In this document: in pieces, positions 6,001-29,716 of the stretch
How the letters are laid out: each line of letters starts with the position of its first letter
How positions within the stretch are numbered: position 1 is the stretch's first letter
DNA from: Marasmius tenuissimus
Lineage: Eukaryota; Basidiomycota; Agaricomycetes; Agaricales; Marasmiaceae
Length of the DNA: 64,000 bases
NCBI GenBank assembly: GCA_029532415.1
Contig: JAQOTA010000053.1
Span: forward strand, 4,340,001-4,404,000
Direction: 5' to 3'
Position numbers and translations under genes: made by a program
The notes under the pieces: generated by a model
Told to the model about the DNA's origin: nothing
The model's input: only the letters and a program-made list of their open reading frames with translations
The model's database searches: none

Positions 6001-8302
6001 TGGTATGCTTCCGAGCTTTATCCAGAGCCTTGTCTGAACAATGTCCGAAACGTCTGTGTAGAACCTTGTAGTCAACTTTATCCATCGTTGACTTGGCCAT
6101 TAAGCTACGAGCAGAAGCTTTCTGCGAGCTAACCCAATAAATGGTTTGACCAGGCATAAGCGGATACGATACCAAAGACTGGCGTCGACCCTTTTGATAA
6201 AAAGCCAATTTGCTAGACGATCCGCGTACTTGCAGACCACCTTGCAAGAATTCTCCGAGAGAGAGAAGTCGAATTGACAGAAGCGGAACATAATAGACAG
6301 GATAGAGTCGCGTAATGCGTTCCTCCATACGACCGTCAGATCCTTCAACAGAATGAGAGATGAACACAGTCCCTTTCCCTTTAATTTGGATAGGGTTGTC
6401 CTTCTGTGCAGTGTTTAGCTGCGGTCCATTGTTCATGGGTTCGTACTCGGCAAAATCTTCGAGATCATAAGTAAAGTGCGATGAAGCACCTGAATCGACG
6501 ATCCACTCTTGCGAGTTTCCAGTCGCCTTCTTTCCCTTACAATTGGCACATGTGGCAAAGTGATCACCAATAAATTGCGCAAATCTCATACGGGACACGA
6601 TATCCGAACTACTACGTTTAGAAGCGGCTAGTAAAGCGGCGCACTGTAGGTTCGTATCAGTGTTAGAAGAAAGACTGAGATAAGGCACTTGCCTGTCATC
6701 GTCAGATTCCTCAGATCCGATGGAGACTGAATCGTACTCAACATCGTCGGAAAAACCAGCGGCATCTGCGATCTCGCTGTCAACGTCCATGGCACTGCCA
6801 CTCGCAATTTCCGTACGCAAAGAATCGTTAACAGCGTTCAACGCGATACGATCCTCACGCTCAGAGTCGGAGTCCTCATAAAAAGAATCATAGAGGTCGT
6901 AAACCTTCTCGACGCTCTTAGCACGCTTTGCAGGTGGAGCAGTGGAGAAGGGACCATCAATACGATGCTTGAGGGAGGAAGAGGAAGCAGCCGCATATCC
7001 CTGTTCCATAGGTTCAAGGACGTGGGCATACTTGGGAACACCAAGACGATCGGCAAGACTGCGAGCAGCCTGAGCATTCTCAAAAACAGTACCACCAGAG
7101 GTAGCACCGGAGAAACGCTGCATGTGGAGTGGATCCCGGGATCGGTCCGCGGGATGTACGACAGATGGAGTATCAGGAACGATGGGTGGTGAAGAGATGG
7201 ACAAATGAGAAAGGGAAGCGATATGAGAATGACCCTTGTGAGAGGAGTCACCCTTGTTGTCCTGAGAATCACCCTTCTTCTTTCTGCCACGTCGGTTGTT
7301 CTTCTTCTTCTGGTCGTTGTCGTTTTTAGATTGATTATTATTATTAGACGTCGACGAAGGAGGATTAGACTGTTGGTTAAACTTCGGGTCCTTGTCCTTC
7401 TTCTTGACAGAAGAAATGCGTGACGCGAGAGGAGCGGGTTTGCGGGATTCGTAGTGGTTAATGACGGCATCACGAGCCACTTCGAAAGTAAGTTCAGCTG
7501 GCGAGTTACCATTGGTAGCGAATTCACGAGCGTTGGCCCATGACTGTGGAATGATAGAGAGGAGGAGCATGGCTCTGACGAGGGTAGGAAGATCGATCTG
7601 AGCTTCAGTGAGCTGGCCGAATAGGAGTTCGAGTTTAGCAATCTCGGGAACGGGGTTACCACCGGACAAACGAAACTCCATGACCGACTTGAAGTCAGCC
7701 CAAACAGACACAGAAGTCTGTTGACCATAACGAGCCTTGATCTTCTCCCAAGCACCCCAAGCAGTATCATCATCCTCGATAATACTCTGCACGGCAATGG
7801 TGGTGGTGGCACGGAGTGCACCCATGGCTTTGAATTCATACTTCTTCCAACGTCGATTATCCTTCTCATACCTGAGAACCTCCTTCTCATACCTCTCCAA
7901 AGCGTTAGCATACTGCTCCAAGTCCCTAGCATACTGCTGCATCTGAGCATCGGTAGGAGAGACCGTCTCCGTGCGTGTAGTCGCTTCAGTTGTAGATGTA
8001 GCAGCAACAGTGACAGTGCGAGTAGTTGGCTTTGGTTCTGCTGGTTCTTTAGGTTTATCGGGTTCAGTAGGTTCAGGATCGTCGTTGGTGTAATGGTCGT
8101 AGAACTCGTTGATCATGGCATAGGTACCAAGACCCTTGGACCACTTGCGCCAGTTGACACCGCTGAAGACCTCAACGGTGGGGATAAGGGTAGACATAAC
8201 AGGAGCCATAGCGATCTGGAGTAATAAAACAACGATCAGCATATGTTCATCATCATAGGCAATGATAAAAGAGATCACTGCACGGTCAACGGCGATAGCC
8301 AT
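3008..8302 (-). CDS. Copia Gag-Pol polyprotein
   Basis: This is a single 1764-codon frame. An upstream Met opens it at 8302, but the Gag-like protein begins MSTLIPTVEVF at 8197 (residue 36), which I prefer as the true start. The order is the copia order. A UBN2-like Gag occupies roughly residues 36-330. The aspartic protease has DSGASSH near residue 602. The integrase zinc site (H-H-C-C) lies near 745-785 and its D, D, E residues near 813, 873 and 908 (SDLKQF, SDGGGEY, QNGRAER). The reverse transcriptase has YVDD near 1447. RNase H has TDSDWA near 1615, SSTEAEY near 1655 and DNQGS near 1690. I see no CCHC zinc knuckle in Gag. The frame has no internal stop, which fits the near-identical LTRs. 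Confidence 0.95.
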   Translation of the reverse strand: MAIAVDRAVISFIIAYDDEHMLIVVLLLQIAMAPVMSTLIPTVEVFSGVNWRKWSKGLGTYAMINEFYDHYTNDDPEPTEPDKPKEPAEPKPTTRTVTVAATSTTEATTRTETVSPTDAQMQQYARDLEQYANALERYEKEVLRYEKDNRRWKKYEFKAMGALRATTTIAVQSIIEDDDTAWGAWEKIKARYGQQTSVSVWADFKSVMEFRLSGGNPVPEIAKLELLFGQLTEAQIDLPTLVRAMLLLSIIPQSWANAREFATNGNSPAELTFEVARDAVINHYESRKPAPLASRISSVKKKDKDPKFNQQSNPPSSTSNNNNQSKNDNDQKKKNNRRGRKKKGDSQDNKGDSSHKGHSHIASLSHLSISSPPIVPDTPSVVHPADRSRDPLHMQRFSGATSGGTVFENAQAARSLADRLGVPKYAHVLEPMEQGYAAASSSSLKHRIDGPFSTAPPAKRAKSVEKVYDLYDSFYEDSDSEREDRIALNAVNDSLRTEIASGSAMDVDSEIADAAGFSDDVEYDSVSIGSEESDDDRQVPYLSLSSNTDTNLQCAALLAASKRSSSDIVSRMRFAQFIGDHFATCANCKGKKATGNSQEWIVDSGASSHFTYDLEDFAEYEPMNNGPQLNTAQKDNPIQIKGKGTVFISHSVEGSDGRMEERITRLYPVYYVPLLSIRLLSLGEFLQGGLQVRGSSSKLAFYQKGRRQSLVSYPLMPGQTIYWVSSQKASARSLMAKSTMDKVDYKVLHRRFGHCSDKALDKARKHTKNFPEFDRKPKKTRLCRGCAEGKMHSRSFPDSTTRASKPFEKIHSDLKQFPTESYHKYKWYMSFVDDCTSHGWTMLMRRKSDSVKMLRDFIAMVKVQFGVDIKEWMSDGGGEYKSDAFDDVLKEHGIKILTSIPYTPEQNGRAERFNRTIVEKAQALRFDACLPPSWWEFCVLHAVALHNRTPSQRLRWLTPHEKLHGSAPDVSDLRVFGCAAYAFIPEKRRVNKLSPRSELMTFIGFQEGMKGYVFMKMSNNAIFKSATALFDENLFPKCSDKKPRGFTPVGEIPEIPPVLGENPNFSSDSDDDSSDDDLYPPKNLPKRSESPHDDDGDGTVPQGERQHSDPDPPFQPPRPPTPVGGKEHSPPPRRSGRKRTGTKQPDNVFGEQRDPNNPSRIVRDMEKNSTWRDATGDREPMDPPTTRRRGRPRRVPGTNRASLSTMCNSRGSQPDSLVQQLSQEGGVGFVIYLLNRAVPVHDDLTDMSNVREWTLRDILKLPAEQQREWKAACRDELEALRKRKVFELVDLPKGRKAVKNRWVFDVKSDGRKKARLVAKGFSQVEGVDFDEIFSPVVRFETVWMMLALAALKNWHIQALDVKNAFLYGELKEEIYMDQPEGFKVKGQEGKVYRLRRALYGLKQAALEWWRALSSSMEVMGFKRLTSDAGLFICKDRETGEECIALIYVDDALFLGPNKAFVEKKKAEFMARWECRDPGEVKEFLRMRIRRRGRKILLDQTDYLKKVLKRFGMQNAKAADTPLPAGYIPQPNEGPVDPERRARYQSVIGSLLYIMLGTRPDIAYAVTKLSQFSANPSEDHLKKALYICRYLAGTPDYALVYDGASDGGLLAFTDSDWAADPIKRRSITGYFFKLAGGIFCWQSRAQKTVALSSTEAEYMALSDCSRQAVWIRQLLSELGIDMTPVPICGDNQGSIFIASNPVQERRTKHIDIRYHYIRECVSDRKVDLFFIDSAYNPADMFTKNLGHVKFSAFRKHLGLEFYSSE

Positions 8303-8526
8303 CGATCGTTGTTGAGGACACAGTCCACCGTCGTCAAAACATCAATGAAGATGTCGACTTCACAGGTCCAGAACCGGTGTTAACGGTCTGCACATCACGA
8401 CAGCGATTAAGCAGTCACAATGGTTATCGAGTGCAACGACCACAATAGCGCATCATCATAGGCAGCACACAATAAAGGTGCACATCCTAGAGAGCTGCCA
8501 TCACAGGGCACATCGACAGGGCACCG

Positions 8527-9900: not shown

Positions 9901-11151
9901 ACAACTCGGAAATTACAAAGGTAGAAAGTATCTGATTACCTCTAATTCAGTATCTTCGTGAGCAATAATAGGTCTCGAATGAGGAGTTGAGTCCGGCGCA
10001 GGAAGATTGATCGATAATCAACGATAAGTCTCGATTTTCTATCCCCTCCGAAGTCCTACCCATATTCTACGGCACCCAAAGTTGAGTTCTTGGCTGAGAA
10101 CGACTGAAATTCGTGCCATCTGTCTTTTATCGTAGCGCATCACAGTGATTGTGACACAGCTCCGTGGCCGTCGTGACGTGCAATTCTGGCCTGAATGTCT
10201 CTTCGTGAGGGGAAAACGAGAGCCATTGCTCATTTCCAATGTCCGTCCTGTTTAAACGAGTCGAAGTATTCAGTTGCGAATACCAAGTGAACTCACCGTG
10301 ATCTTCGAGCGCCCATCTCGGAAAGAAATACGAGGGGGATGAGGAAAGGACGGTGAAGAGCTTTTCGTGGAAGCACTCTCACCGACCTTGTCCTTTCAGT
10401 CGTCGTCACTGGAGGCATCAGGCAGATGCGTCCTTGCCCTGTTGACAGCGTATTCGCGTTCTGCGGTCGAATCGACCGAACCAGCAAGAGGCGGAAGCAG
10501 CCGAATAATCTCTCCGAGTTGACCCAGGGCTTCCAGGGATAGGCGATGGCTGGGGCAGGTTTGGAGTCTGGACTTGGCAGGTTTGTCGCTCCTAAAGGAC
10601 ATCCGCTCGAAGGTGCCGGTGAGCAGTAGTCCAGCCCCTCTTACACAGCGGCCGCTAAATTTCGTCCTGTAACCTGTCCATGTCAGTGTTAGAGCCATAT
10701 CGGTTTTGTTGGTAGATATTTGGCGCGAAGCCCCGGCCAGACAACCGATCGACTTGGCGGGTGCGGGGCTTGCTCCGAAATGCTCCCAATCCAAAGAAGG
10801 ACATATTGCAATCATTTCGTGGCTTGAACGTCAGACAATGTTGATGAAACGACACCGCCAATTGTAAATAACTGCTCTCTCTATTGCAATCGACCTCAGC
10901 TTTACGTTCCTCTACACCCACATTCTCGCCTGTCCAGGCCTTTCCCTGGTTTCGTTGCCCTTCTCTGGACTCTATATCACTACAGCACTTTGGATCTAGC
11001 ATCCCAAAGTCATCGAGCTTCGACGTCGACCCCTGACGGATCGTTCCCTATACAGCTTCGTCACCGAGCTTCGCCAAATCGCCCTTCCCCAACCTCCCTT
11101 CAGATCTATGACCCATCATATTTGACGAGGGAGGGAAACCACCTTGAGACA
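9901..11151. other. Intergenic segment with an unrecognised minus-strand ORF
   Basis: The part at 10060-10120 shares a CATATTCTAC-GGCACCCA block with 44365 and 53225, which lie between family X and CGS 3' ends, so it is a remnant of the same unit. A 139-codon minus-strand ORF (10396-10815) shows no known motif and has no second copy here. A run to 11151 leads to the NACHT gene and may hold its promoter. I cannot support a gene. Confidence 0.3.
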
Positions 11152-14100
11152 ATGCATCGTGGTTCACAACCAAAGAAAAATCTCAGTACGATACCCCGAA
11201 TGAATATAAATCGCGGTAGAGACCAGATTCATGGTGATAGTGTGGAGGTCAACAACATTGGGGGTGACCTCGTGCAGAACTTCGCCACCAGATCGCTCAG
11301 CTGTGAGTCTTCGTCGACTCGTCCCTCAGTGATGAGAGTATCTGACACAGGAGGTTTTGTAGCCCGCATAACCCGCAAGTTGTGGGATGCGGTCGCCGGC
11401 GTAGGAGCATCCCACTTGTCACAGCAGCAGTTTGACAGAGGACTTGAATGCCTCGAGGGAACTCGTGAAGAGGTTCTTGAAGCCATTTATGCTTGGTTAA
11501 TGTCCGAGGACGGGTCTTCTCCGATATACTGGATCTCGGGCGCTGCAGGGGTTGGCAAATCAGCCATCGCAATGACTATAGCCAAATCCTATGAAGGCAA
11601 AGGGTTGGCATCATCTTTTTTCTTCTTTCGACCTGACCCGAAACGGAACAACCCATCCGCCTTCGCATTGTCCATTGCCCACGACCTCAAGGTAAGGATG
11701 CCATTTGCTGAAGGCTACATCACTCGGAGGATATCAAAGGATCCGACCATACTGGAGGCTACGCTGGAAGACCAGTTCCGAGAACTCGTCTTCGAACCCT
11801 GTCTGCGAAATAGATTGCTGAGGCGTATTTTACACCAACTCTCGTTCGTACCCAAAGAACCAAGGCTGGTCATCATAGATGGCCTGGACGAATGCAGCGA
11901 CGAAAATACTCAGCGTCGGATTCTCTCGACCATCCTATCCTCTTACAAGCAGTCGCGCCACTTTCCCTTACGTTTCCTCATTTGCAGTCGTCCGGAGGCG
12001 TGGATCCGAGAAGCCTTCAACGAGGAGGACCTCCGTAGACTCACTCAACATTTCCAGCTCGACGATGAAATATTCCCTGATAGGGACATTGAGCGGTATT
12101 ACCTCCGTGAATTCAGAAATATTCGCGAGAGCCCTCAATTTGCTCGCCTTCCATTCCCAGAAGTCTGGCCTTCACCCGAGGACCTTGTATGTTTGGTAGA
12201 CAAGTCATCCGGCCAATTTGTATACGCGGTCACTGCTGTAAAATTTGTAACGCTTCGTTGCTCTAATCCCCTTACTCAACTTCGCACCATTCTTGACTAC
12301 ACCCCTGACAATCCCCCATCTAGATCGTCGTTTGCCGCCATTGACACCCTATACCAGATGATCCTCTCCGACCATCCCGATCCCGAACAATTACTCCCTG
12401 TCCTTGCTGCGATCCTCATACTTCCTCCTCATGGACTCTCCTCACCTGAGTTCATCGAGTTGCTCCTTGGACTCCCTACTGGAGAAATCGACATCATCTT
12501 GCGGCCCATGCATTCCATACTGAACATCCGCAATGCAGACGTGCCGATTACCGCGTACCACGCATCGTTCATTGACTTCCTTTATGACAAGTCGCGCTCA
12601 CAGTGTTTCCACATTGACAAAGCCGCCCAGCGTGATTTCTTTGCACGGCGATGGATACAGGCACTTGAGCCAAGGAACCAGCCTCGGTCGTAAGTATTCC
12701 GTCTCTCTCGGCATAACAAATCTAAACGGCAGCTTTTCCTTTAGCTCTGACGACCAGACAAAGTGCACCTTGTGGGACGGTTGGACGGACTTTTGCCTTC
12801 GCGTAGAGCGACCCAGCGAGGGGCTACTGTTCGATCTTCGAAAGATGGATATACTGGCGGTTTATATCAGTGTGGTCCTCATACATCACGAACGTGAAGA
12901 GCTCTCGTCCATTATCACTGGTCCACTTGAAGCAATCATATCTTGGCTGGCTCCGCTGGTGAGCGTGTTCTTCATCCGATGAAGGCAGTATGGTTTACTC
13001 GACTCACTGTAAAGGACGGGTCTCCACCAGTTCAAGTCATTCGTCATTTCCAGGTCATTCTTACGCAGTATAAATCGCTCCTCACGGCCAAATCCGACGA
13101 GAGGTAAGGTGTTCTTACCCGATTTCCACCCTTCTTATGACTTAACTTCTTAGCAACATTGATAGCATCCAGGGGCAATTGAGGGGCTCTCCTCGTCACG
13201 AGCTAGCCACACTATATCACCTTGTGCTTACAGCCCATCCGGACCCTGAAAGACTTCGTTCCATTCTTTCTGCAATCCTCGTCCTCCCACCCCATCTCAA
13301 ACCGTCCCCGACATATATTGGGTTGTTGTTTGGACTGCCACCAGGAGAGGTGATCCTTGCGTTGCAAGGGATGCGCTCGGTACTGGATGTCCGTGGGTGT
13401 GAGGACGAGATTCGTGTTCGCCACCCCTCATTCACGGATTATCTGGTTGACCAGAAGCAGTCGCATGAGTTCCATATTGATATCCGCGCTCAAAGACATT
13501 TCATCGCGCGACAGTGGCTTGACAGTGTCTCGGCTTTCAAGATGCAGATGTATAGGTATGGAATTTTCGATCATTTGTCTCCTCGACCGCTGTCTTGGCA
13601 TGTACTCAACGTGGAATTTCTAGCTTTGACGAGCTCTATGGCGATAGCACGAACTCATTCTTTACGGAATGGATGGGGTTCTGTACCACGAAGTTTACCA
13701 AACCAACTCAGCACTTGATGAATGGGCTGCGAGACATCGATTTTGCCTCTGTCTTCTTTTGCAAACACTTTCCAAAATTCACAGGGCGTTACCCTCTCCC
13801 AAGATGGTCTGATACTTTTCAGGCTTTACGCGCCTGGATGGTGAAAGTCGTTAGTGTACCTTACTTTTTTTTCTAAATGACCTCTTCGTGCTGATCACTC
13901 GTGATTGCTAGAACCGGGGATATAATTTTCCCCATTCCGTACAGGGCCTTGTGGAAAAACTCGAGAAATCTCCCAAGAGTTTTCATCTAGAACAGTCTTC
14001 AGAACCTCTCTCGGATGACGACTTGGTGGTTGCCGTCCTAATCACCATAGAATGGCCAGGGGATAACCGTCTGGTATCCGATGCAACGAGAAATTATCAA

Positions 14101-20121: not shown

Positions 20122-20836
20122 TGTTAGAATCGTGCGGATATGACAGCCCGGACGGAGGTCCGAGCGGAAGCGAGCGGAAGCCGACGTGCCGGAATGGACT
20201 AGTCGGAGTTGGAGAGATTCCGACGACCGGAAGGCCGTACGGATGGCTGGACAATAGTCGAAGGTTTCGCCAACGACACCGTTGAGTTGAGTTGTCCTTG
20301 ACCGGAAGGAAAGGAAGATAAAGATGAAGAGGAGATAGAGATAAAGAGACGGAATGAGCCGAATGAGATAAACGGAAACCAAGTTGATTTTAATTCTGAG
20401 GAATACAAGTCATGAAGTATCTAGCTTATATATGTATCGATCTCCGAGACCTCCGAAGGGGTTCCGGCGATCGTAGTACCGAAGGTGAATCAAGAGCGGG
20501 AGAGAAATGTATGTACAGTACGGAATCCGAGACGGGGGGTGAAGTCCCGGAGTCGGAGATGAATCGGAAATGAAGTGTCAGAATGGAATGTACGGGATGA
20601 GTCATGATGGAATGGAGAGCGGAATGTCGGAATGTAAAGTATACGTACTACTCGGAAATGAACGGTGTATAGGTATCTCCGATCCGTGAGTACCGGGGAC
20701 ACGACGTCGGAATCCGAAGTCATGTTCCGGAAAGGATCGTGAAGGAAGAGAAAAGATAAAGTAGATTCCGAGTATCGGAATCTCCGGAAGGTGGATAGAA
20801 GCCTTCGGAAACCCCGGAACCGGCATGGATGTAACA
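20122..20836 (-). repeat. Gypsy 3' LTR
   Basis: 715 bp, nearly identical to 28208-28922 (differences near 20611, 20672, 20689 and 20697). It is preceded by the ATACT duplication. Confidence 0.95.
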
Positions 20837-20840
20837 GTAT

Positions 20841-20849
20841 CCCCCTCTT
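20841..20849 (-). promoter_or_regulatory. Gypsy polypurine tract
   Basis: The element strand reads AAGAGGGGG, then ATAC, then the TGTTAC end of the 3' LTR. Confidence 0.7.
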
Positions 20850-20961
20850 AAGGCTCTCGCCTCGAGGGCCGCGGAGGAAGTAAAAAGAAAATCGTAAAAC
20901 GTAAAAGTTCGGAAGCAATCGGAAAGAAGACATAAAACAATAGAATCATGACGAGTCGATA

Positions 20962-20994
20962 GAACGTTCTGGAACGTGAAAGAATATTCTGGAA
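20962..20994 (+). promoter_or_regulatory. Two perfect trimeric heat-shock elements
   Basis: GAAcgTTCtgGAA (20962-20974) and GAAtaTTCtgGAA (20982-20994) each match nGAAnnTTCnnGAAn, the binding site of heat-shock factor. They lie 30-60 bp upstream of a TATA box (21024) and about 80-115 bp upstream of the ATG of the antisense gene. The match is seen; heat-shock control is inferred. Confidence 0.65.
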
Positions 20995-21023
20995 ATCCAA
21001 ACAAGAAACAAATAGAAAAAAGA

Positions 21024-21030
21024 TATATAA
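21024..21030 (+). promoter_or_regulatory. TATA box of the antisense gene
   Basis: TATATAA 46 bp before the ATG at 21076. With the heat-shock elements upstream, it gives the antisense gene a complete-looking core promoter inside the element. Confidence 0.6.
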
Positions 21031-21075
21031 GAAGCGCACCAAGCGAATCCCAACTTCATTTCCCCAATTCCCAAA

Positions 21076-22306
21076 ATGTCACCTACACCCTCTCGATCAC
21101 CAATTCCCTCCGATCTTTTCTTCACCGTTCCGCGTCCGGATGAAACAATTCCGGATTACATCACCAAGAAACCGAAACTCGCGGAATACTTGGCTCGATA
21201 TCCGGAAGAGGAGGACGAACAAGCCTCGCGCGAATTCAACGAGGACGTGAAAACCTGGAACCGGAATCGGAATGCTTGGGTAGAGGAAAGGCAGGAAGAG
21301 ATAGCGGAGAGTATCGCGGATTGGGAGAAAGCGAAAGCGGATGCGGAAAAGGAGCTGGAGGACTGGCGGAAGGATAGGGATGGTCGGATGGAAACGAGGC
21401 GGAAGCAACGGGAGGCTGAGGAGGAGGAAGTGCGAGCGAAGACGGCAGTTCCGGAAACAGAGGTGAAGTCCGAGCCTCTCGAATACACATTCTCCGACGC
21501 CGACAGACAGTCCATGGATATGGACTGGGAATCGGTGTGTCCGACTTGTCGGATATTTCCTCCTTCCGAATTTTTTAACTTCTTGTAGTTTTACCCCACG
21601 CTGACGCCTCATCAACAAATGATTTTCCAGTCCGGGTTCGTCGCCGGAAAGAAAACGTCGGAATCCGCGGGAGCTAAACGGAAGGGAAAGGCGAAAGAGA
21701 GCAGCGGAAAGGTTACGGATGTAGAGGAGGTCGGAACGGGACCGCTTCTTCCGATTGGTAAGTTCAACTTGTCTGAAAACCGATTTCTTCTAACTTTTCA
21801 TAGCCTGCAAGAAATGTTCCGCTGCGAATGCGGAATGTCGCCGGAATGTGATGGCTGGAACCAACTTCCGCGGTCCGACTAACGCATGCTTCCGGTGCCG
21901 CAAGAAGAAAGCAAAGTGTGTGTTCCCGGACGGAAGCGGAGACGGAACGAGGTCGGATGCGGGTTCGATGAAGTCCAAGAACTCGGAAGGAAGACGGAAA
22001 CCTGCGGGCAGGAAAGAGGTACACTTGGCACCAGAGGTCGAGAAGGATCTGCGGCAGATCAACCGCGGAATTCAACTCCTCCTTAGTGTTCATGGTGTTG
22101 ATTTCCCGGACAGCTCGGATGAGGGTGAGGACGAAGCGGAAGCGGAAGAGGAAGGGGAAGAGGACCGGGAGGAAGGACCGTCATCGAGGCCTAGCAAGAG
22201 GCCAGCGTCTCGATCCCCGAAGACACTCCGGAAGAAGGTGAAGAGCGCGGAAACAATCCCGGAAGAGGAAGAAGATGAAGCGGATAAGGATAGGATGGAA
22301 GAGTGA
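21076..22306 (+). CDS. Antisense Zn2Cys6-type protein encoded by the gypsy element
   Basis: The gene lies on the strand opposite to gag-pol, between the pol stop and the 3' LTR. Three exons join in frame with GT-AG introns: 21076-21534, 21631-21757 and 21804-22306, giving about 362 residues. Exon 3 opens with C-x2-C-x6-C, then 16 residues, then C-x2-C-x6-C with a basic run (CFRCRKKKAKC). This is the spacing of a fungal binuclear zinc cluster, a DNA-binding domain. Exon 1 is charged and probably coiled (residues about 50-125). The C-terminus is strongly acidic with basic patches. The cluster sits centrally, not at the N-terminus as in most Zn2Cys6 factors. The introns show it is transcribed from its own promoter and not read from the retroelement RNA. 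It could regulate the element or direct integration; neither is shown. Confidence 0.75.
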
Positions 22307-22453
22307 AAGACGGAACGTCCGGAACGCGGACAATTTCTTGTGTTTTTTGTACTTGTAGAATATTCTTGAAACGTCGCCCGGCCGGAAGGCCTTTCTCGGA
22401 ATCATGAGTGATCGTAAGATAATCGGAAGCGGAATCGGAACGATGAAATGAAC

Positions 22454-25400
22454 TTAGATAGAACCGATAGGACCAGGCTTGTGAGGATAACGTTCGTGAA
22501 ATGCTCGGAGGAGATCCGGAGCGTTGAAGTTGTCTGCCGTGACCCAAGAGAACTCCTCGTCGGTGCCTTCGTAACCGAGCCATCGGATGCGATATTGTAA
22601 CTTGCACTTGAAGCGACGGTCGATCTTGGAGTCTAGGATCTCGGAAATCTCATAATGATCTTCTTCTCCGGTGTCGAGTTCGACGGGACCCGGAGGAGGT
22701 TGGACACGATTCGGAATGGGGTTCGGAAGGATGGATTCGAGTTGGGAAACGTGGAAAGTTGGATGGATGGTACAGAATTCAGTCGGAAGTCGGAGGGTAT
22801 AAGCAACTGGAGATGGTGTAGCAATGATCTCGAAAGGACCTAGGAATTTCTCGGAGAATTTAGCGGTAGGTCTGGTCGTTTTGATGTACTTAGTGGAGAC
22901 CATAACTTGATCGCCAATCTTCCATTCCGGCTGAGGCTGAAGATGTCGATCCTTCTGTTCCTTCATACGGGTTTGGGCGTGAGTAAGTTCTTCTCGGAGT
23001 ATGGAATGAAGCTCATCTAGATCAACCACAGACTCTCGTGCACGGGCGGAAGCCATGTCTCGTTCCGGGTGGATGGTGATGTTCGGATGATAACCCTTGT
23101 TGGCAAAGAATGGTGAGATTCCGGTGGAAGCGTTCGGAGCATTGTTGTAAGCGAACTCGGCAAGAGGCAGGAGTTCATCCCAGTTGTCCTGCTGGTAAGA
23201 ACAGTAGACTCGGATATACTGCTCAAGCGTCTGATTCGCCCGTTCAGTCTGTCCGTCGGCGGAAGGGTGATAACCGGAAGTATAGTGAAGATTCATGTCA
23301 AGGGCTTTCCCGAGGGAACGCATAAAGTGGGAAATGAATTCGGAACCACGGTCGGAGGTGACGTGCTGAGGAACTCCATGCTTAGAGAACACATGGATAA
23401 CGAAGAGTCGAGCTAGTTGTTCGGAAGTGATATGGATGTCGGTAGGGATGAAGATTGCTTGTTTCGAAGCGCGGTCGATGATAACTAGGATGGAATTGAA
23501 ACCGTTAGAGTTCGGAAGTTCCTCGATGAAGTCCATAGAGATAGAGTCCCATGGTCGTGCGGGAACCGGAAGAGGTCGTAGAAGTCCGTATGGCCGATGT
23601 CGTGGAGTCTTGTTCCGTGCACAAGTTACACAGGAGCGAACATAGTCTCGCACGAACTCTCGGATGAGAGGCCATGTATATTGACGTCGGATGGTTTCTA
23701 GAGTCCGGTTCTGTCCAAAGTGACCAGAGATGATATGATCATGATATTGTTGGAGGATTCTAAGTCGGAGGTTGTTGGCTTCAGGAATGTAGATTCTGTC
23801 ATCTAAACGGAGGAAACCTGTCTCGTCGACAGTCCATCTAGTCTCGTCGGAAGTGTCGGAAGCGGATCGGAAGTGTTGGATGAGGGAGGAATCTTCTGTC
23901 TGAGCAGTTCGGATGTCTTCATGGAGCTGCTCGACGTCCATGATAACGCTTGCGCGAAGAACTGGACCTTCGAGGAATGTAGCGCGGAGGGAAGCGGTGA
24001 GTTGTTCCTGAGTGAATACAGGTCGGAAGTTGTGTGGATTGAGATGGGCGTAAGGCGTATCCCCCTCTTTAGGATAGACGTCCCATCGTCTAGTCAAAGC
24101 GTCCGGTTTTGCACCGAGCTTGCCAGGACGGAAACGAATTACCATGTTAAAGTGAGAGAGGTACTCGGACCAGCGTACTTGACGTCGGGTGAGAATCTTC
24201 GTAGTGGTGAAATATTCAAGATTTTTGTGATCCGTTACCACGTCGACCGGATTCTCGGAACCTTCCAAGTAGTGCCGCCAACGTTTGAACGCCTCAAAGA
24301 TAGCGAGGAGCTCTTTGTCGTGTACATCGTAGTTAAGTTCCGGAGGAGTGAAAGTCCGGGAGTGGAATGCGATAGGATGGATCTCACCGTCGTCGGTCCG
24401 GATAGAGAGGATAGCCGCCAACGCATAATCGGATGCGTCGGTTTCCACAATGATTTCTCGATCAGGAATCCAGTGCGTGAGGATAGGAGCATGAGTGAAT
24501 GCCTCTTTCAGAGTATCGAAGGCAGCCTGGCATTCCGGGCTGAAGTTCCAACGAATGTCTTTCCGAGTGAGGCGGGTTAAAGGAACGGTGATGGCGCTAT
24601 AGTTGAAGATAAAACGCCGATAGAAGTTGCAAAAGCCGAGGAAAGATTGAATATCCTTAACTTTGCGCGGCGTAGGCCACTTGGTAATGATATCCACTTT
24701 GGACATATCCATCCGAAGACCATCCGGCGAAAGAATGTAGCCGAGGTATTCGATAGTATCGGTATGGAATTCGCACTTGGAGGCTTTGCAGTACAATCCG
24801 TTTGCCCGGAGGCGTTTGAGAACCTCCCGGACATGCTTCTTGTGAGAGGAAATGTCGTCGGAATAGATGAGGATGTCGTCTAGGTAAACTAAAACGTTAA
24901 CATCAAGCATATCGGAGAAAATGTTGTTGACGAAGCGTTGGAAGACTGCAGGTGCGTTGGATAGTCCTTCCGGCATAACCCGCCACTCGAATGAGCCGTA
25001 ACGGGTCCGGAAAGCGGTCTTGTATTCATCACCGTCGGCGATACGCACAAGGTGATAAGCATGACGGAGGTCAAGCTTGGTATAGATCCGAGCCTTCCGC
25101 GGAGCGTCGAGAAGATCGGATATGAGAGGGAGCGGATAGCGATCCTTTTTGGTAATCTTGTTGAGACCTCGGAAGTCGACACAGAGTCTAAGATCACCAC
25201 TCTTCTTCTTGACGAAGAGAACGGGAGCGCCGAAAGGAGATTTGGATGGAGTGATGAGCCCGGCCTGGAGATGTTCATCGATGAATTCCCGGAGAGCTGT
25301 GATCTCCGTTTGAGAAAGGGAATAGATCGGACCGAGAGGTGGTTCCGTTCCTTCCTCTAACTGAATCTTCATGTCGTCTTCTCCGCGATGCGACGGAAGC

Positions 25401-26116
25401 TGTTTCGACATTTCTGGACTGAAGACGTCAGTGAATTCATGATAATCAGGCGGAATGATTGCCAAATCTTCCTCTGAAAGTTCCGCCGCACGTCCGGAAA
25501 CCGTGTCGGAAGGCGTCATCTGGATGGTGAACGCCCGAGCACCGGATTCGGACTTTGCTCGGAGGTAAGCGCCAGCTGATATGAGGGAAACCTTCGGAGC
25601 TATAGCAGACGGAGCTGAGAGAAGATCAGCGTAGGAATAGATGGGCTCGAATGGATAAGATGGAGACTTAGCCTTGCGCCGAGGCGATTTAGGCTGAGGA
25701 GAGACTTCCGAGAGCTCGGAAGAGCGAGTCGGAAGGGCCGGCTGAGACGGAATTGGCTTTGTCCGGAATTCGATACTGTTGTTCGACCAGTCAACCAACG
25801 GGTTGTAGCGGTGAAGCCAGTTATATCCTAAAACTAGGCTGCAAGCCGAATCAAGGTGAGTGACATAAAAGTCAATCGGAAGAATGTCTCCAGAAGAAAA
25901 AATGATAGGTAAAGAGGCCATGCGCGAAATAGTGGAACCATGAGAACCATTCAGAAGGCGAAGAGAAATAGGTGGTATTGAAACGGTAGGTACTTGGTTA
26001 CGTTCCACATACTTCGTATCTATAAAGCAGTGGGACGAACCGGAATCAACGAGAGCGGAAAAAGATAATGGTACAGTAGTAGATGACTGTTCGTGTGTAT
26101 CGGAAGAAATAGACAT
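22454..26116 (-). CDS. Gypsy Pol with C-terminal chromodomain
   Basis: The frame from the ATG at 26116 gives 1220 residues. The frame is open upstream to the gag stop, so translation probably enters by -1 frameshifting at 26245-26250 and adds about 44 residues. Domains in order: aspartic protease (VDSGSSHCFID), reverse transcriptase (YLDDILIYS), RNase H (VETDASDYAL), integrase zinc site (HDHIISGHFG with CVTCARNK) and integrase core (MDFIEELP, TSDRGSEF, DGQTERANQ). The chromodomain near the end includes YRIRWLGYEGTDEEFSWV. Chromodomain gypsy elements (chromoviruses) can target marked chromatin. No internal stop is present. The 3' end lies 148 bp from the stop codon of the antisense gene, so the two are convergent. 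Confidence 0.95.
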   Translation of the reverse strand: MSISSDTHEQSSTTVPLSFSALVDSGSSHCFIDTKYVERNQVPTVSIPPISLRLLNGSHGSTISRMASLPIIFSSGDILPIDFYVTHLDSACSLVLGYNWLHRYNPLVDWSNNSIEFRTKPIPSQPALPTRSSELSEVSPQPKSPRRKAKSPSYPFEPIYSYADLLSAPSAIAPKVSLISAGAYLRAKSESGARAFTIQMTPSDTVSGRAAELSEEDLAIIPPDYHEFTDVFSPEMSKQLPSHRGEDDMKIQLEEGTEPPLGPIYSLSQTEITALREFIDEHLQAGLITPSKSPFGAPVLFVKKKSGDLRLCVDFRGLNKITKKDRYPLPLISDLLDAPRKARIYTKLDLRHAYHLVRIADGDEYKTAFRTRYGSFEWRVMPEGLSNAPAVFQRFVNNIFSDMLDVNVLVYLDDILIYSDDISSHKKHVREVLKRLRANGLYCKASKCEFHTDTIEYLGYILSPDGLRMDMSKVDIITKWPTPRKVKDIQSFLGFCNFYRRFIFNYSAITVPLTRLTRKDIRWNFSPECQAAFDTLKEAFTHAPILTHWIPDREIIVETDASDYALAAILSIRTDDGEIHPIAFHSRTFTPPELNYDVHDKELLAIFEAFKRWRHYLEGSENPVDVVTDHKNLEYFTTTKILTRRQVRWSEYLSHFNMVIRFRPGKLGAKPDALTRRWDVYPKEGDTPYAHLNPHNFRPVFTQEQLTASLRATFLEGPVLRASVIMDVEQLHEDIRTAQTEDSSLIQHFRSASDTSDETRWTVDETGFLRLDDRIYIPEANNLRLRILQQYHDHIISGHFGQNRTLETIRRQYTWPLIREFVRDYVRSCVTCARNKTPRHRPYGLLRPLPVPARPWDSISMDFIEELPNSNGFNSILVIIDRASKQAIFIPTDIHITSEQLARLFVIHVFSKHGVPQHVTSDRGSEFISHFMRSLGKALDMNLHYTSGYHPSADGQTERANQTLEQYIRVYCSYQQDNWDELLPLAEFAYNNAPNASTGISPFFANKGYHPNITIHPERDMASARARESVVDLDELHSILREELTHAQTRMKEQKDRHLQPQPEWKIGDQVMVSTKYIKTTRPTAKFSEKFLGPFEIIATPSPVAYTLRLPTEFCTIHPTFHVSQLESILPNPIPNRVQPPPGPVELDTGEEDHYEISEILDSKIDRRFKCKLQYRIRWLGYEGTDEEFSWVTADNFNAPDLLRAFHERYPHKPGPIGSI

Positions 26117-26202
26117 ATTTGAAGAAAGAGTAAGAGTAAGAGAATTAGGCGAAGAAAGAGCGGCTGCGTTGAGAGTTACCTCGGTGGAACGATCCGGCTC
26201 AA

Positions 26203-26250
26203 CGCAACTCCGAACTCGTTCCGAGGGTTCGGAGTTGCGGACTATTTTTT
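26203..26250 (-). promoter_or_regulatory. Predicted -1 ribosomal frameshift signal between gag and pol
   Basis: On the element strand the gag frame ends GCG AAA AAA TAG (stop at 26244-26242). Five bases after the A run starts a perfect 13-bp stem (CGCAACTCCGAAC at 26239-26227, pairing with 26215-26203) with an 11-base loop. The pol frame is the -1 frame, is open across this site, and runs on to the Met at 26116. Slippage of tRNA-Lys on the A run would bypass the stop. The parts are seen; frameshifting is inferred. Confidence 0.7.
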
Positions 26251-28170
26251 CGCCTCATCCGGTTTGGATGTGGAGGCGTCCGAAGTAGCCGCAGCACGAC
26301 CTTTAGCCTGAGAACCGGCCGCAGGTCGCTTCCTACAATCATCTGTCTTGTGCTTTCCGCCACAGAACATGCACAAGTTGTTCTTCTTCCGACGTTCCTT
26401 CTCTTCCGGCTTCAACTTTCCGTCCTTACCAAGATACTGGGCAACCGGGTTGGTAGTGTTGGAAGTTGGATTCGACCCAGTGTTGTTGTTGGCGTTGGAC
26501 TTGTTGCCGGAAGAGTTGCTGGAAGAGTTACCGGAACTCTTGTTAGAGCCACCAGAACTACCGGAACCTCCGGAAGAGTTGTTGGAACGATTTCCGGAGT
26601 TGTTGTTGGATCGGGAGTTGGAATTCGAATTGTTGTTGTTGGCTCGTTTCGCTGCTCGGCCCTCTCGGGATTTCTCCCCTTCGCGTACCCAGTGCGTCCG
26701 GTCGTATTCCCGGCACACTACACGCAACTGTTTGAGAGTCGAAGGACGAGCACCAACGTTCGGAAGTAAATCTTTGATACGCTTTGGCATAGCGCGATAA
26801 TAGGCATGACGGAGAGCGTTCTCGCCGTAACCAATCTTGGCTGCGAGAGTGTTGAAACGAACCTCGAACTTTCCGATTTTCTCCCCTTCTCCCATCCGGA
26901 GGTTGTCGAACTTGTCTTCGGCTTCCTCTATCGTATCCACCTGTCCGAAGAACATTTCGAGTTCATCGAGGAATGCTCGGAGGCTGAACATCCAAGCGGG
27001 CGGATCGGAATCGGTTTCATAGGATAGGATTTCGGGTTGGAAATATTCGAGGCACATGCCACGGAGGTAGGAAATGATGTAGTGGATTTTATCGGCATCG
27101 GTAGGAAAGTCGGAAGGACGGTGATTGAAAACGATCATACATGACACGATGAAGCTCGGAAGTTTGTCGGGTTGAGTTCCGTCGAAGGTATCAGGTTCCT
27201 TGACGTTCCCCTTCTTTTCCGGCTTCTTCCCAAGAAGCTGGGCGATGATTTTGTTGTGCTCAAGCATGGATTGTACGAGTGCCATCATATTGAATTGGTA
27301 GAGATCGTTTCCGGGACCTCTAGGGAATCCAGGTCCCACACCTCGACCACCGGAAGGTCCCCCGTCAGGAGGCCCACCATCGGGAGGTCCGGGGGGTCCG
27401 GGTGGTCCGGAATCACCGGGTTCGTGATCGGATGCGTCGTCACCTTCCGGCTCCGTATCCGTGTCTCCACCCCTGTTACTACCTGCTCGGGATCCGCCCC
27501 TACTGCCACCTCGAGAGCCCTTGGGTTCCTTGACCTGTTTATGTGGATCGGATCCCTCGGGTAACGCTGTTTCTGTTGGTCGTTCAGTATCCCGGGGCAT
27601 AACCGGAGCTGTAACTGGAGGAGTGGATGGTTGTTCTTTGTCAACGGCGGCATCGAAAGTAAAGTCATCAATTATCCCCTCATCGGCCTTGTTCTTCCCC
27701 TTAGCTGGTTTCGGAGGAGGTTCGTTATGAGCCTTGTCAAGTGCTAGTGCTAGTTTTGCAGGATCAAGCACTCCTCGAGGATCTTCGATAGTAGCTGGAG
27801 AGAAAACTTGACGGGATGGGGGTTTCGGAGGTGGAGGAGGACGACTAGGAGTTTCGGGTACCTTGTCCCCTATATAGACTGTTCTGCCGTCCTCAAGTGT
27901 CCTGTATTTCGAAGCCATTGTTGTAGGACGTCGGAGCTTGCTAGGCGGAAGTGGTGCGACAGTATTAAGTGTGCCGATACGTGGAGTTGAATGTACGTCG
28001 ATTTGATATTCGGAAGCACGGACGCTGCTACCGAAAACCGCTTGTCGTTCTTTACGTCGACCGTAACGGTTGGTTGAGATGGATTCGGAAGCGGAGATAC
28101 TTCCTACGAATTGGTTGGGTGGATCTTCGTCGAAGTGTCCAGGGAATTCAGGATTGACTTGTCTGGACAT
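26242..28170 (-). CDS. Gypsy Gag
   Basis: 642 residues from ATG at 28170, the first ATG after the primer site. The N-terminal half is Pro/Gly-rich and charged. A retrotransposon Gag core lies near residues 330-480 (with WMFSLRAFLDELEMFFG and RYNTLAAK-like text). An Asn/Ser/Gly-rich spacer follows, then one CCHC knuckle (CMFCGGKHKTDDC) near residue 605. It binds and packages element RNA. The reading frame is intact. Confidence 0.92.
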   Translation of the reverse strand: MSRQVNPEFPGHFDEDPPNQFVGSISASESISTNRYGRRKERQAVFGSSVRASEYQIDVHSTPRIGTLNTVAPLPPSKLRRPTTMASKYRTLEDGRTVYIGDKVPETPSRPPPPPKPPSRQVFSPATIEDPRGVLDPAKLALALDKAHNEPPPKPAKGKNKADEGIIDDFTFDAAVDKEQPSTPPVTAPVMPRDTERPTETALPEGSDPHKQVKEPKGSRGGSRGGSRAGSNRGGDTDTEPEGDDASDHEPGDSGPPGPPGPPDGGPPDGGPSGGRGVGPGFPRGPGNDLYQFNMMALVQSMLEHNKIIAQLLGKKPEKKGNVKEPDTFDGTQPDKLPSFIVSCMIVFNHRPSDFPTDADKIHYIISYLRGMCLEYFQPEILSYETDSDPPAWMFSLRAFLDELEMFFGQVDTIEEAEDKFDNLRMGEGEKIGKFEVRFNTLAAKIGYGENALRHAYYRAMPKRIKDLLPNVGARPSTLKQLRVVCREYDRTHWVREGEKSREGRAAKRANNNNSNSNSRSNNNSGNRSNNSSGGSGSSGGSNKSSGNSSSNSSGNKSNANNNTGSNPTSNTTNPVAQYLGKDGKLKPEEKERRKKNNLCMFCGGKHKTDDCRKRPAAGSQAKGRAAATSDASTSKPDEAKK

Positions 28171-28194
28171 TCAGTAATTTCAACTCAAGGTTCG

Positions 28195-28205
28195 AGAATT
28201 AAAAT
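28195..28205 (-). promoter_or_regulatory. Gypsy primer-binding site, self-priming type
   Basis: Two bases inside the 5' LTR the element strand reads ATTTTAATTCT. No tRNA 3' end (TGG start) fits. The same 11 bases are complementary to AGAATTAAAAT in the LTR (28483-28473), which starts about 35 bp after a TATA box (28518-28512). This is the arrangement of Tf1/sushi elements, where the first bases of the RNA fold back to prime reverse transcription. Confidence 0.75.
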
Positions 28206-28207
28206 AC

Positions 28208-28922
28208 TGTTAGAATCGTGCGGATATGACAGCCCGGACGGAGGTCCGAGCGGAAGCGAGCGGAAGCCGACGTGCCGGAATGGACTAGTCGGAGTTGGAG
28301 AGATTCCGACGACCGGAAGGCCGTACGGATGGCTGGACAATAGTCGAAGGTTTCGCCAACGACACCGTTGAGTTGAGTTGTCCTTGACCGGAAGGAAAGG
28401 AAGATAAAGATGAAGAGGAGATAGAGATAAAGAGACGGAATGAGCCGAATGAGATAAACGGAAACCAAGTTGATTTTAATTCTGAGGAATACAAGTCATG
28501 AAGTATCTAGCTTATATATGTATCGATCTCCGAGACCTCCGAAGGGGTTCCGGCGATCGTAGTACCGAAGGTGAATCAAGAGCGGGAGAGAAATGTATGT
28601 ACAGTACGGAATCCAAGACGGGGGGTGAAGTCCCGGAGTCGGAGATGAATCGGAAATGAAGTGTCAGAATGGAATGTACGGGATGAGTCATGATGGAATG
28701 GAGAGCGGAATGTCGGAATGTAAAGTATACGTACTACTCGGAAATGAACGGTGTATATGTATCTCCGATCCGTAAGTACTGGGGACACGACGTCGGAATC
28801 CGAAGTCATGTTCCGGAAAGGATCGTGAAGGAAGAGAAAAGATAAAGTAGATTCCGAGTATCGGAATCTCCGGAAGGTGGATAGAAGCCTTCGGAAACCC
28901 CGGAACCGGCATGGATGTAACA
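28208..28922 (-). repeat. Gypsy 5' LTR
   Basis: 715 bp with TGTTA/TAACA ends. It contains TATATAA on the element strand (28518-28512) and the predicted RNA start near 28483. It is followed by the ATACT duplication. Confidence 0.95.
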
Positions 28923-29004
28923 ATACTGATTATCTTGCCTTAGGCGTATTGATATGCGGGACCGACACTACAGAACGGAGGATCAAAATGACAGTTGGAA
29001 GCGA

Positions 29005-29716
29005 TGTTACATCCATGCCGGTTCCGGGGTTTCCGAAGGCTTCAATCCACCTTCCGGAGATTCCGCTACTCGGAATCTACTTTATGTTTTCTCTTCTTCA
29101 CGATCCTTTCCGGAACATGACTTCGGATTCCGACGTCGTGTCCCCAGTACTTACGGATCGGAGATACATATACACCGTTCATTTCCAAGTAGTACGTATA
29201 CTTTACATTCCGACATTCCGCCCTCCATTCTATCATGACTCATCCCGTACATTCCATTCTGACACTTCATTTCCGATTCATCTCCGACTCCGGGACTTCA
29301 CCCTCCGTCTCGGATTCCGTACTGTACATACATTCTCTCCCGCTCATGACTCACCTTCGGTACTACGATCGCCGGAACCCCTTCGGAGGTCTCGGAGATC
29401 GATATATATATAAGCTAGATACTTCACGACTTGTATTCCTCAGAATTAAAATCAACTTGGTTTCCGTTTATCTCATTCGTCTCATTCCGTCTCTTAATCT
29501 CTATCTCCTCTTCATCTTTATCTTCCTTTCCTTCCGGTCAAGGACAACTCAACTCAACGGTGTCGTTGGCGAAACCTTCGACTATTGTCCAGCCATCCGT
29601 TCGGCCTTCCGGTCGTCAGAATCTCTCCAGCTCCGACTAGTCCATTCCGGCACGTCGGCTTCCATCTCTTCCGCTCGGACCTCCGTCCGGGCTGTCATAT
29701 CCGCACGATCCTAACA
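29005..29716 (+). mobile_element. Solo LTR of the same gypsy family, inverted
   Basis: 712 bp, clearly homologous to the gypsy LTRs but more diverged and in the opposite orientation. It has its own 5-bp duplication AGCGA (29000-29004 and 29717-29721). It interrupts exon 3 of the KDZ transposase; removing it with one AGCGA restores the frame. It lies 82 bp from the 5' LTR of the full element, making a large inverted repeat. Confidence 0.92.

Follow-up and report, generated by a model that had tools for sequence, protein, structure and literature searches.

A spliced antisense gene for a putative Zn2Cys6-type protein in a CGGAA-rich Ty3/gypsy retrotransposon of Marasmius tenuissimus

Introduction

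Does a gene that lies antisense to gag-pol in a fungal LTR retrotransposon encode a protein, and what might such a protein do for the element that carries it? Accessory ORFs that lie antisense to gag-pol, downstream of pol and ahead of the 3' LTR, have been reported for several elements, among them maize Grande (gene23), rice RIRE2, Silene Retand (TRP28) and Botrytis Boty (brtn), in the available parts of PMC7264820 and PMC11963269. Where antisense accessory genes of LTR retrotransposons are described, it is without a known function (PMC7264820, available text). A candidate of this kind lies in a 64,000-nucleotide stretch of the Marasmius tenuissimus genome, hereafter the window. A preliminary description made from the letters alone had placed three exons there on the strand opposite to gag-pol, encoding C-x2-C-x6-C, 16 residues and again C-x2-C-x6-C, and had proposed a Zn2Cys6-type factor that could control its own element. 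The gene, its copies and the element were followed through the single host genome (71 Mb in 70 contigs).

The element and its antisense gene

The element is a complete-looking Ty3/gypsy chromovirus (Table 1). Its pol runs in the order protease, RT, RNase H, integrase, SH3 and chromodomain by Pfam, and paired LTRs, target-site duplications and a polypurine tract are all present, with 4 differences between the LTRs over 714 compared bases. The antisense gene, whose reading direction is opposite to that of gag-pol, lies in the stretch from the end of pol to the 3' LTR. Further + strand ORFs within the element are seen at 23807-24580, 26173-26769 and 26312-26800. A solo LTR of the element's family stands in the opposite orientation at 29005-29716, 82 bp past the element, and has its own target-site duplication, AGCGA. 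Elsewhere the window holds an open Ty1/copia-type gag-pol ORF of 1777 aa at 3011-8341 (-), as well as NACHT/NPHP3_N ATPase domains (NLR-like) in two ORFs at 10828-12690 (+) and 59786-61117 (+).

Table 1. Features of the retrotransposon and of its antisense gene, in window coordinates
Feature	Position	Strand	Remark
Left target-site duplication, ATACT	20117..20121		matches 28923..28927
Whole element, Ty3/gypsy chromovirus, complete-looking	20122..28922		gag-pol on - strand
3' LTR, 715 bp, TGTTA..TAACA	20122..20836	- (sense orientation)	22 CGGAA/TTCCG
Polypurine tract adjoining 3' LTR, sense AAGAGGGGGATAC	20837..20849	-	from sequence
TATA-like box TATATAAG	21024..21031	+	52 nt upstream of antisense ATG; in the 10 copies shown
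Antisense gene, three exons	21076..22306	+	
Exon 1	21076..21534	+	
Intron 1, 54 nt, GTGTGT..TAG	21535..21588	+	from copies and P0006
Exon 2	21589..21757	+	acceptor 21630 would drop first 42 nt
Intron 2, 46 nt	21758..21803	+	
Exon 3 with stop codon	21804..22306	+	
Six-cysteine region	21806..21919	+	first half weakly like Gal4 second half; second half like Gal4 first half
Conserved helix around EKDLRQINRGIQLLLSV	22031..22090	+	sole confident part of structure model
Putative bipartite nuclear localisation signal, SKRPAS.SPK..RKK.KS	22193..22246	+	
Tail, antisense stop to pol stop, 147 bp	22307..22453	+	7 CGGAA
pol, stop to stop	22454..26254	-	from Pfam
gag ORF	26242..28170	-	
5' LTR	28208..28922	- (sense orientation)	paired with 3' LTR
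Right target-site duplication, ATACT	28923..28927		

The DNA of the antisense gene has 36 matches in the genome, and a protein piece from exons 2 and 3 has 32 listed matches, from which 30 loci were cut; these contain 28 distinct gene sequences, and the copy numbers given here are lower bounds. Both introns are bounded by GT..AG in 28 of the 30 copies. The full frame is intact in 16 copies, all of which encode the six cysteines, and the six-cysteine pattern appears in 19 of the 30 spliced translations, including those of L029, which has an internal stop, and L038, in which the last arm is shortened. The ratio dN/dS is 0.08-0.20 in 11 of 12 usable pairs; the twelfth has a value of 0.36 based on 8 synonymous changes. 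Of the 16 pairs computed, three that involve L038 (6 codons, up to its first stop) and L009-L035 (infinite dS) were dropped. The antisense gene is a real, spliced, protein-coding gene under purifying selection. The copies thus bear out the three in-frame exons and the cysteine spacing described at the outset, which are not a product of chance, and show the frame and the cysteines to be conserved among related elements. Retention of the introns on the antisense strand is likewise what would be expected, as had been argued, if the genomic sense RNA hides them from the spliceosome.

A functional antisense RNA, a regulatory non-coding transcript with an incidental frame, would pair with the genomic RNA and might be thought sufficient to explain the conservation. 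As the sole function it is refuted by the codon pattern of purifying selection together with the retained splice sites and cysteines, and we consider it extremely improbable. A sense-strand gene at the same place was also rejected: the - strand ORF at 21097-21789 is interrupted by stops in every frame in all 8 other copies tested.

The exon borders proposed beforehand need one adjustment. The junction across intron 2 (21757/21804) stands, whereas exon 2 probably starts at 21589 and not at 21631. Intron 1 most likely ends at 21588, since the 14 codons ahead of the acceptor at 21630 are open and similar in 25 of the 30 copies and are contained in the M. tenuissimus database protein P0006, which is identical to the spliced translation of L031-L033. 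The product is then 376 aa long (362 aa with 21630). Use of 21630 as an alternative acceptor is possible, as its AG is retained in all 28 splice-competent copies, 25 of which also preserve the in-frame offset of 42 nt. Intron 1 is better conserved than intron 2, and an inverted repeat, TCCGAC..TCGGA, follows directly after the first 5' splice site (21535-21560) and is kept in most of the types shown; this repeat could serve as a binding site or as a hairpin in splicing.

Several old gene types on one backbone

The copies fall into types, and their divergence is strikingly uneven along the element. In an alignment of 11 copies, identity with the window is 92-98% in the LTR and promoter region and 93-99% at the end of pol for the less decayed members of types B, C and D, whereas most of the antisense gene is only 53-77% identical. 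The parts of the gene outside this range are the two introns (74-85% in intron 1, 41-62% in intron 2) and its final 156 bases (69-87%). The decayed or truncated copies L016, L028 and L038 are lower in the flanks too. The divergence has its border near the presumed transcription start and fades across the last exon and the 3' tail. At synonymous sites, pol of the window differs from that of types A, B, C and D by a dS of 0.056-0.079 over 1008 codons, a range given without L050, whose interrupted frame put the comparison out of register. For the gene, dS from the window is 0.10 within type A, 1.1-1.3 to B1 and B2, 1.8 to the decayed L028, and above 2.4 (up to 2.75) or saturated to C and D; the sub-type pairs B1-B2 and C-D are each separated by about 0.5. 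The database proteins P0005 and P0011 (annotated set AAF712) represent a further type, the domain of which finds its best match in this genome at 65%. Three type-C copies, L031-L033 (G000:C21:713682-730745), are identical in gene DNA and spaced 8076 and 8078 bp apart; as this is about the length of one element minus one LTR, they look like a tandem array with common LTRs.

Divergence limited to the gene and its close edges could in principle reflect local hypermutation instead of old types. This explanation is hardly credible: in the one type-A pair measured in both regions, dS has similar values in the gene (0.10) and in pol (0.067), dN/dS is low, and the types are discrete clades. In a tree of 16 copies, the gene recovers A, B and C+D with full support. 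The pol and LTR trees of 16 copies mix the types and need 7 and 6 label changes, where shuffled labels average 7.0.

The same pattern is seen when divergence between types is divided by divergence within types. For 16 of the 30 copies (L010, L018, L023, L025-L030, L032, L033 and L036-L038 were left out), the gene has a ratio of 4.0-5.0 (permutation p 0.0005). The values for the flanks are 1.18 (p 0.10) for the promoter, 1.23 (p 0.012) for the tail, 1.00 and 0.98 for the LTR, and 0.68-0.89 for pol. The decayed type-A copies L015-L017 inflated the within-type values through their decayed or truncated pol, and a recount that also omits them gives 3.8-5.4 for the gene, 1.25 and 1.17 for the LTR (p 0.024 and 0.040), 1.59 for the promoter (p 0.004), 1.39 for the tail (p 0.0035) and 1.01-1.19 for pol (p 0.07-0.45). 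By this recount, the flanks are largely, not wholly, reshuffled between types and retain a weak linkage near the gene. This is the pattern to be expected of recombination on either side of a segment with types that are kept separate. One copy, L010, is itself a chimera that begins as type B1 and continues as type A, with the joint near 21420. Several old gene types therefore coexist on one recombining backbone.

Old types on a common backbone may also arise as a by-product of mixing, if elements of several species or lineages met and template switching or gene conversion then homogenised the backbone and not the gene, with no selection for rarity. Recombination is real, as L010 attests, and the weak association of promoter and LTR with type after removal of the three decayed copies is in keeping with such a history. 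LTR and pol are nearly reshuffled by type, however, while at least three deep gene groups remain, and a neutral process should not spare exactly the antisense transcription unit. Taken together, an origin by mixing alone seems distinctly unlikely.

A cysteine region with apparently reversed halves

The antisense protein begins with a conserved start, MSPTPSR.PTP, after which come a variable, charged stretch and then the six-cysteine region. Beyond this region there are a short helix, an acidic run and a basic stretch that aligned weakly to nucleoplasmin (E 0.015). An AlphaFold model of exon 3, built on a 12-row alignment, has a mean pLDDT of 54.7 and is poor in the cysteine region. No gag domain was found in the protein by Pfam. 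Three protein database searches returned 1, 3 and 7 relatives, all from M. tenuissimus; the latter two scored only the 8000 candidates that shared the most words.

The six cysteines in two C-x2-C-x6-C sets and the arm C-R-x-[KR]-K-x-K-C are shared with the fungal Zn2Cys6 domain (Gal4-type, PF00172), and to this extent the zinc-cluster assignment made earlier stands. It needs qualification in that the two halves appear to be in reversed order, the spacer is 16 residues long and the match falls below the Pfam cut-off. The usual Zn2Cys6 spacer is shorter than 16. Pfam Zn_clus is matched by 11 of 12 exon-3 sequences at E up to 10, the best at 0.014; the scores listed, 14.6, 14.1, 16.0 and 13.1 bits, all miss the gathering cut-off of 21. 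The domain is seen in 2 of the 5 database relatives scanned, and P0007, P0009 and P0011 have no match even at E 10. In UniRef, P0007 and P0009, two relatives from M. tenuissimus, bear the name Zn(2)-C6 fungal-type.

The impression of reversed halves comes from several comparisons. The type-C second half, which contains the arm, aligned to chain positions 9-23 of Gal4 and 4-18 of PPR1, that is, to their first halves, at 11.9 and 12.0 bits respectively, whereas the other half scored 1.9 and -0.7. For type G (P0005), the first half aligned to Gal4 27-42, the second half of Gal4 (11.4 vs 3.4), in a search in which an unrelated chain slightly outscored Gal4; a search with the type-C first half found nothing. 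The Gal4 and PPR1 alignments have E-values of 2-8, and none is significant alone. The Pfam profile placed the halves in the same manner: its positions 20-35 matched the P0005 first half, and its positions 2-13 matched the second half of the window's protein. Position scores were also derived from the host's own Zn2Cys6 domains (of 20 domains fetched, 15 first halves and 14 second halves were used). With these, 5 of 5 second halves, of which those of C and D are an identical string, favour the canonical first half (3.7 to 16.3 vs -9.2 to -0.3), and 5 of 5 first halves favour the canonical second half, weakly, at -9.6 to 1.0 (host mean 10.3). A reversed order is thus well supported for the second half and suggested for the first, and the Pfam shortfall seems to be due to this order.

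One of the host domains, L080 (G000:C10:3127609-3127740), has in its first half ACFRCRGKKAKC, which is nearly the second half of the element's region. Its ACFRCRGKKAKC...SCTACTKANVECVR resembles the two halves of the element with the order swapped, a hint that L080 may mark the source of a captured host gene.

Saturation of the element with CGGAA

Zn2Cys6 proteins read CGG triplets by means of an arm of the Gal4 kind. CGG is their classical half-site, and many of them bind as dimers. The element contains 154 CGGAA/TTCCG, compared to 18.5 expected from the rest of the window, in which 74 overlapping stretches of 8.8 kb have at most 22. The density per kb is 47.6 in the tail, 30.8 in the LTRs and 24-29 in the antisense exons; gag and pol have 12, the promoter stretch has 8.3, and DNA elsewhere has 2.1. 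Shuffling of synonymous codons leads to an expectation of 17.4 for pol, 7.1 for gag and 12.4 for the antisense gene, compared to 45, 23 and 32 observed, counts that were reached in 0 of 300 shuffles for each of the three genes. Against dinucleotide shuffles, CGGAA ranks first of 512 in non-coding DNA as well (24 vs 4.3 in LTR and promoter, 7 vs 1.1 in the tail, 19 vs 2.7 in the solo LTR). The saturation exceeds what protein sequence and codon use explain.

The enrichment is a property of the family. Thirty RT loci were compared, 17 of the element's family (pol identity of about 95% or more) and 13 others; CGGAA occurs 9.5-13.5 times per kb in the former and 0.9-3.2 times in the latter. It is the top-ranking of 512 pentamers in 16 of the 17 family pol loci and second in L053, ranks which are not 17 independent tests given the common ancestry of these loci. 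In the 13 others it ranks between 18 and 503 and never first, and in three other long ORFs of the window it ranks 366, 411 and 33. A one-step mutation bias was rejected as the source of the motif, for its lowest neighbours, CGCAA and CAGAA, stand at 0.46 and 0.64 of expectation and do not amount to one drained source. No fixed spacing of CGG pairs was seen beyond codon-phase distances.

Where the gene has diverged, the motif is better kept than other words. Between type A and types B1 and B2, 0.44-0.56 of the motif words in the gene are kept, as opposed to 0.27 of other 5-mers, and between A and types C and D 0.28-0.31, as opposed to 0.13-0.14. The excess is small in the decayed gene copy L028 (0.25 vs 0.20). 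Motif words in pol are kept no better than others, 0.89-0.95 vs 0.88-0.93 in four copies and 0.73 vs 0.88 in the truncated L057. The gene has 26.8 CGGAA per kb in type A, 24.1 in B1, 17.7 in B2, 18.7 in C and 20.4 in D, at sites that partly differ between the divergent types (11-12 of the 23-25 sites of C and D are common to A); the decayed copies L028 and L038 are sparser, with 8.8 and 9.9 per kb. Separately, words containing CpG are kept less than others in the L028 gene (0.115 vs 0.197) and in L057 pol (0.805 vs 0.877), as expected if older copies were methylated and deaminated.

Whether the antisense protein is the reader of this motif is a separate question. Two independent sequence facts point in that direction, namely an arm in common with Gal4 and an element full of CGG followed by AA. 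CGGAA could instead be read by something else, such as a host transcription factor or Gag in the packaging of genomic RNA, with the antisense protein acting in another way. Host Zn2Cys6 factors also read CGG, and the host genome has 53 Zn_clus matches at E up to 0.01. The motifs are one-sided in the LTRs (18:4) and in the tail (7:0), and the truncated family copies L057 and L052 keep the motif although no antisense gene was found in the 4 kb downstream; these two, for their part, descend from the same family. Relative to the codon null, CGGAA and TTCCG on the coding strand are enriched 2.7 and 2.5 times in pol, 2.6 and 4.2 times in gag, and 2.8 and 2.0 times in the antisense gene, and this enrichment in both orientations fits double-stranded DNA better than RNA and so argues against an RNA signal, one-sided as the LTRs are. 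A host reader is further disfavoured by the lack of enrichment in the 13 other RT loci. Two non-family elements, L071 and L072, were checked for an accessory gene, and the 4 kb downstream of pol in each contained no C-x2-C-x6-C ORF of 110 aa or more. Another reader of CGGAA is rather unlikely on this evidence, and the saturation gives indirect support to the earlier suggestion that the protein may act as a DNA-binding factor on its own element.

A possible role in self-recognition

The explanation that we tentatively favour, at somewhat less than an even chance, is that the antisense gene encodes a nuclear factor that would bind the CGGAA words all along the element carrying it, probably to counter silencing, and that the types of the gene are kept by an advantage of rarity. 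The binding itself, the way in which it would act and the reason for the types are all inferred from sequence. The protein would enter the nucleus, its CRxKKxKC arm would read CGG(AA), and it would coat the LTRs, genes and internal region of family copies in trans, with the motif as a self-address. Most likely it would then oppose silencing or activate transcription, in a manner similar to VANC, with no relationship implied.

An advantage of rarity would most simply hold the gene types apart, and the favoured cause is escape from homology-dependent silencing. The antisense segment holds the one gene identified on the + strand of the element and would be transcribed in both directions, and its RNA could pair with genomic RNA. 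Counting against the proposal as a whole, the gene types have LTRs and motif in common, and the target motif does not differ by type.

Rarity could also be favoured through type-specific self-repression, a form of copy-number control in which the protein restrains its own type, rare types escape, and old types persist as a result. As expected of an incompatibility locus, only the gene is deeply divergent on a common, recombining backbone, and there is a precedent in yeast Ty1 and Ty1', where the resident gag type decides which tester is restricted (PMC7055915, available text). The LTRs and the motif, however, hardly vary by type, leaving no type-specific DNA target visible; dN/dS is low, and windows of 20 residues single out no segment of the protein. 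Self-repression by type is accordingly judged unlikely, and the low dN/dS together with the diverged second intron makes us lean towards escape from silencing over type-specific self-restriction. A broader proposal of self-marking, which combines an order-reversed Zn2Cys6 factor, LTRs and synonymous sites rewritten into a CGGAA array, and types that serve as an incompatibility or immunity locus, is possible but doubtful as a whole.

Comparison with known systems

The closest parallel in working would be VANC of the Arabidopsis VANDAL elements. In the available parts of PMC5735166 and PMC10398659, a short VANDAL motif is dense in its own family, rare in other elements and arranged in arrays of one orientation, and diversification of the system is proposed as an escape from RNA-directed silencing. 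The present element similarly combines an element-borne protein with a motif dense in its own family (17 family loci against 13 other RT loci), and its one-sided motifs, here in the LTRs, recall the VANDAL arrays. By contrast, VANDAL is a DNA transposon whose motif, in the text available, lies mainly in non-coding tandem repeats, whereas the present motif belongs to a retrotransposon and also occupies synonymous coding sites. The VANC motif changes with the protein, as far as that text goes, and here it is unchanged between gene types; homology is not claimed.

With the antisense accessory ORFs (PMC7264820 and PMC11963269, available parts), the gene shares its place and orientation, conservation in many copies and a suspected nuclear or DNA-binding role. 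The location and orientation of the aORF-3R class are present, as is a coding sequence kept in many copies. Those ORFs differ in belonging to plant or ascomycete elements and to other protein families. The words 'intron' and 'zinc' do not occur in the main texts of the two papers, and their available parts describe neither motif saturation nor divergent types on a common backbone.

Two further systems offer partial parallels. Copy number control of Ty1 through p22/p18 also depends on an element-encoded trans-acting protein, and its controlling gene has diverged between subfamilies (PMC7055915, available text). The inhibitor p22 is derived from sense-strand gag and has particles as its target, whereas the gene described here is separate and antisense. 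The second parallel concerns gene architecture. HTLV-1 HBZ is a spliced antisense gene near the 3' LTR that encodes a bZIP DNA-binding regulator in an animal retrovirus. The present gene is alike in being spliced, antisense and near the 3' LTR and in encoding a DNA-binding regulator, here putative; it differs from HBZ in protein family and in the type of host.

Implications

The position of the antisense gene is known from other elements, and its putative zinc-cluster product, the CGGAA saturation and the old types are new features within the literature searched. No report of an antisense zinc-cluster gene in a retrotransposon was found there (few subscription papers were covered), nor of a retrotransposon whose coding DNA is saturated with a motif, nor of comparable gene types with a backbone in common. 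The element supplies both a candidate target, CGGAA, and a natural experiment, old types on one backbone, which make function directly testable. If control is type-specific, the types would constitute an incompatibility system among the copies of a single element. If the motif is indeed a self-address, selection would act on synonymous sites for a binding word, and sequence-specific anti-silencing would extend from plant DNA transposons to a fungal retrotransposon.
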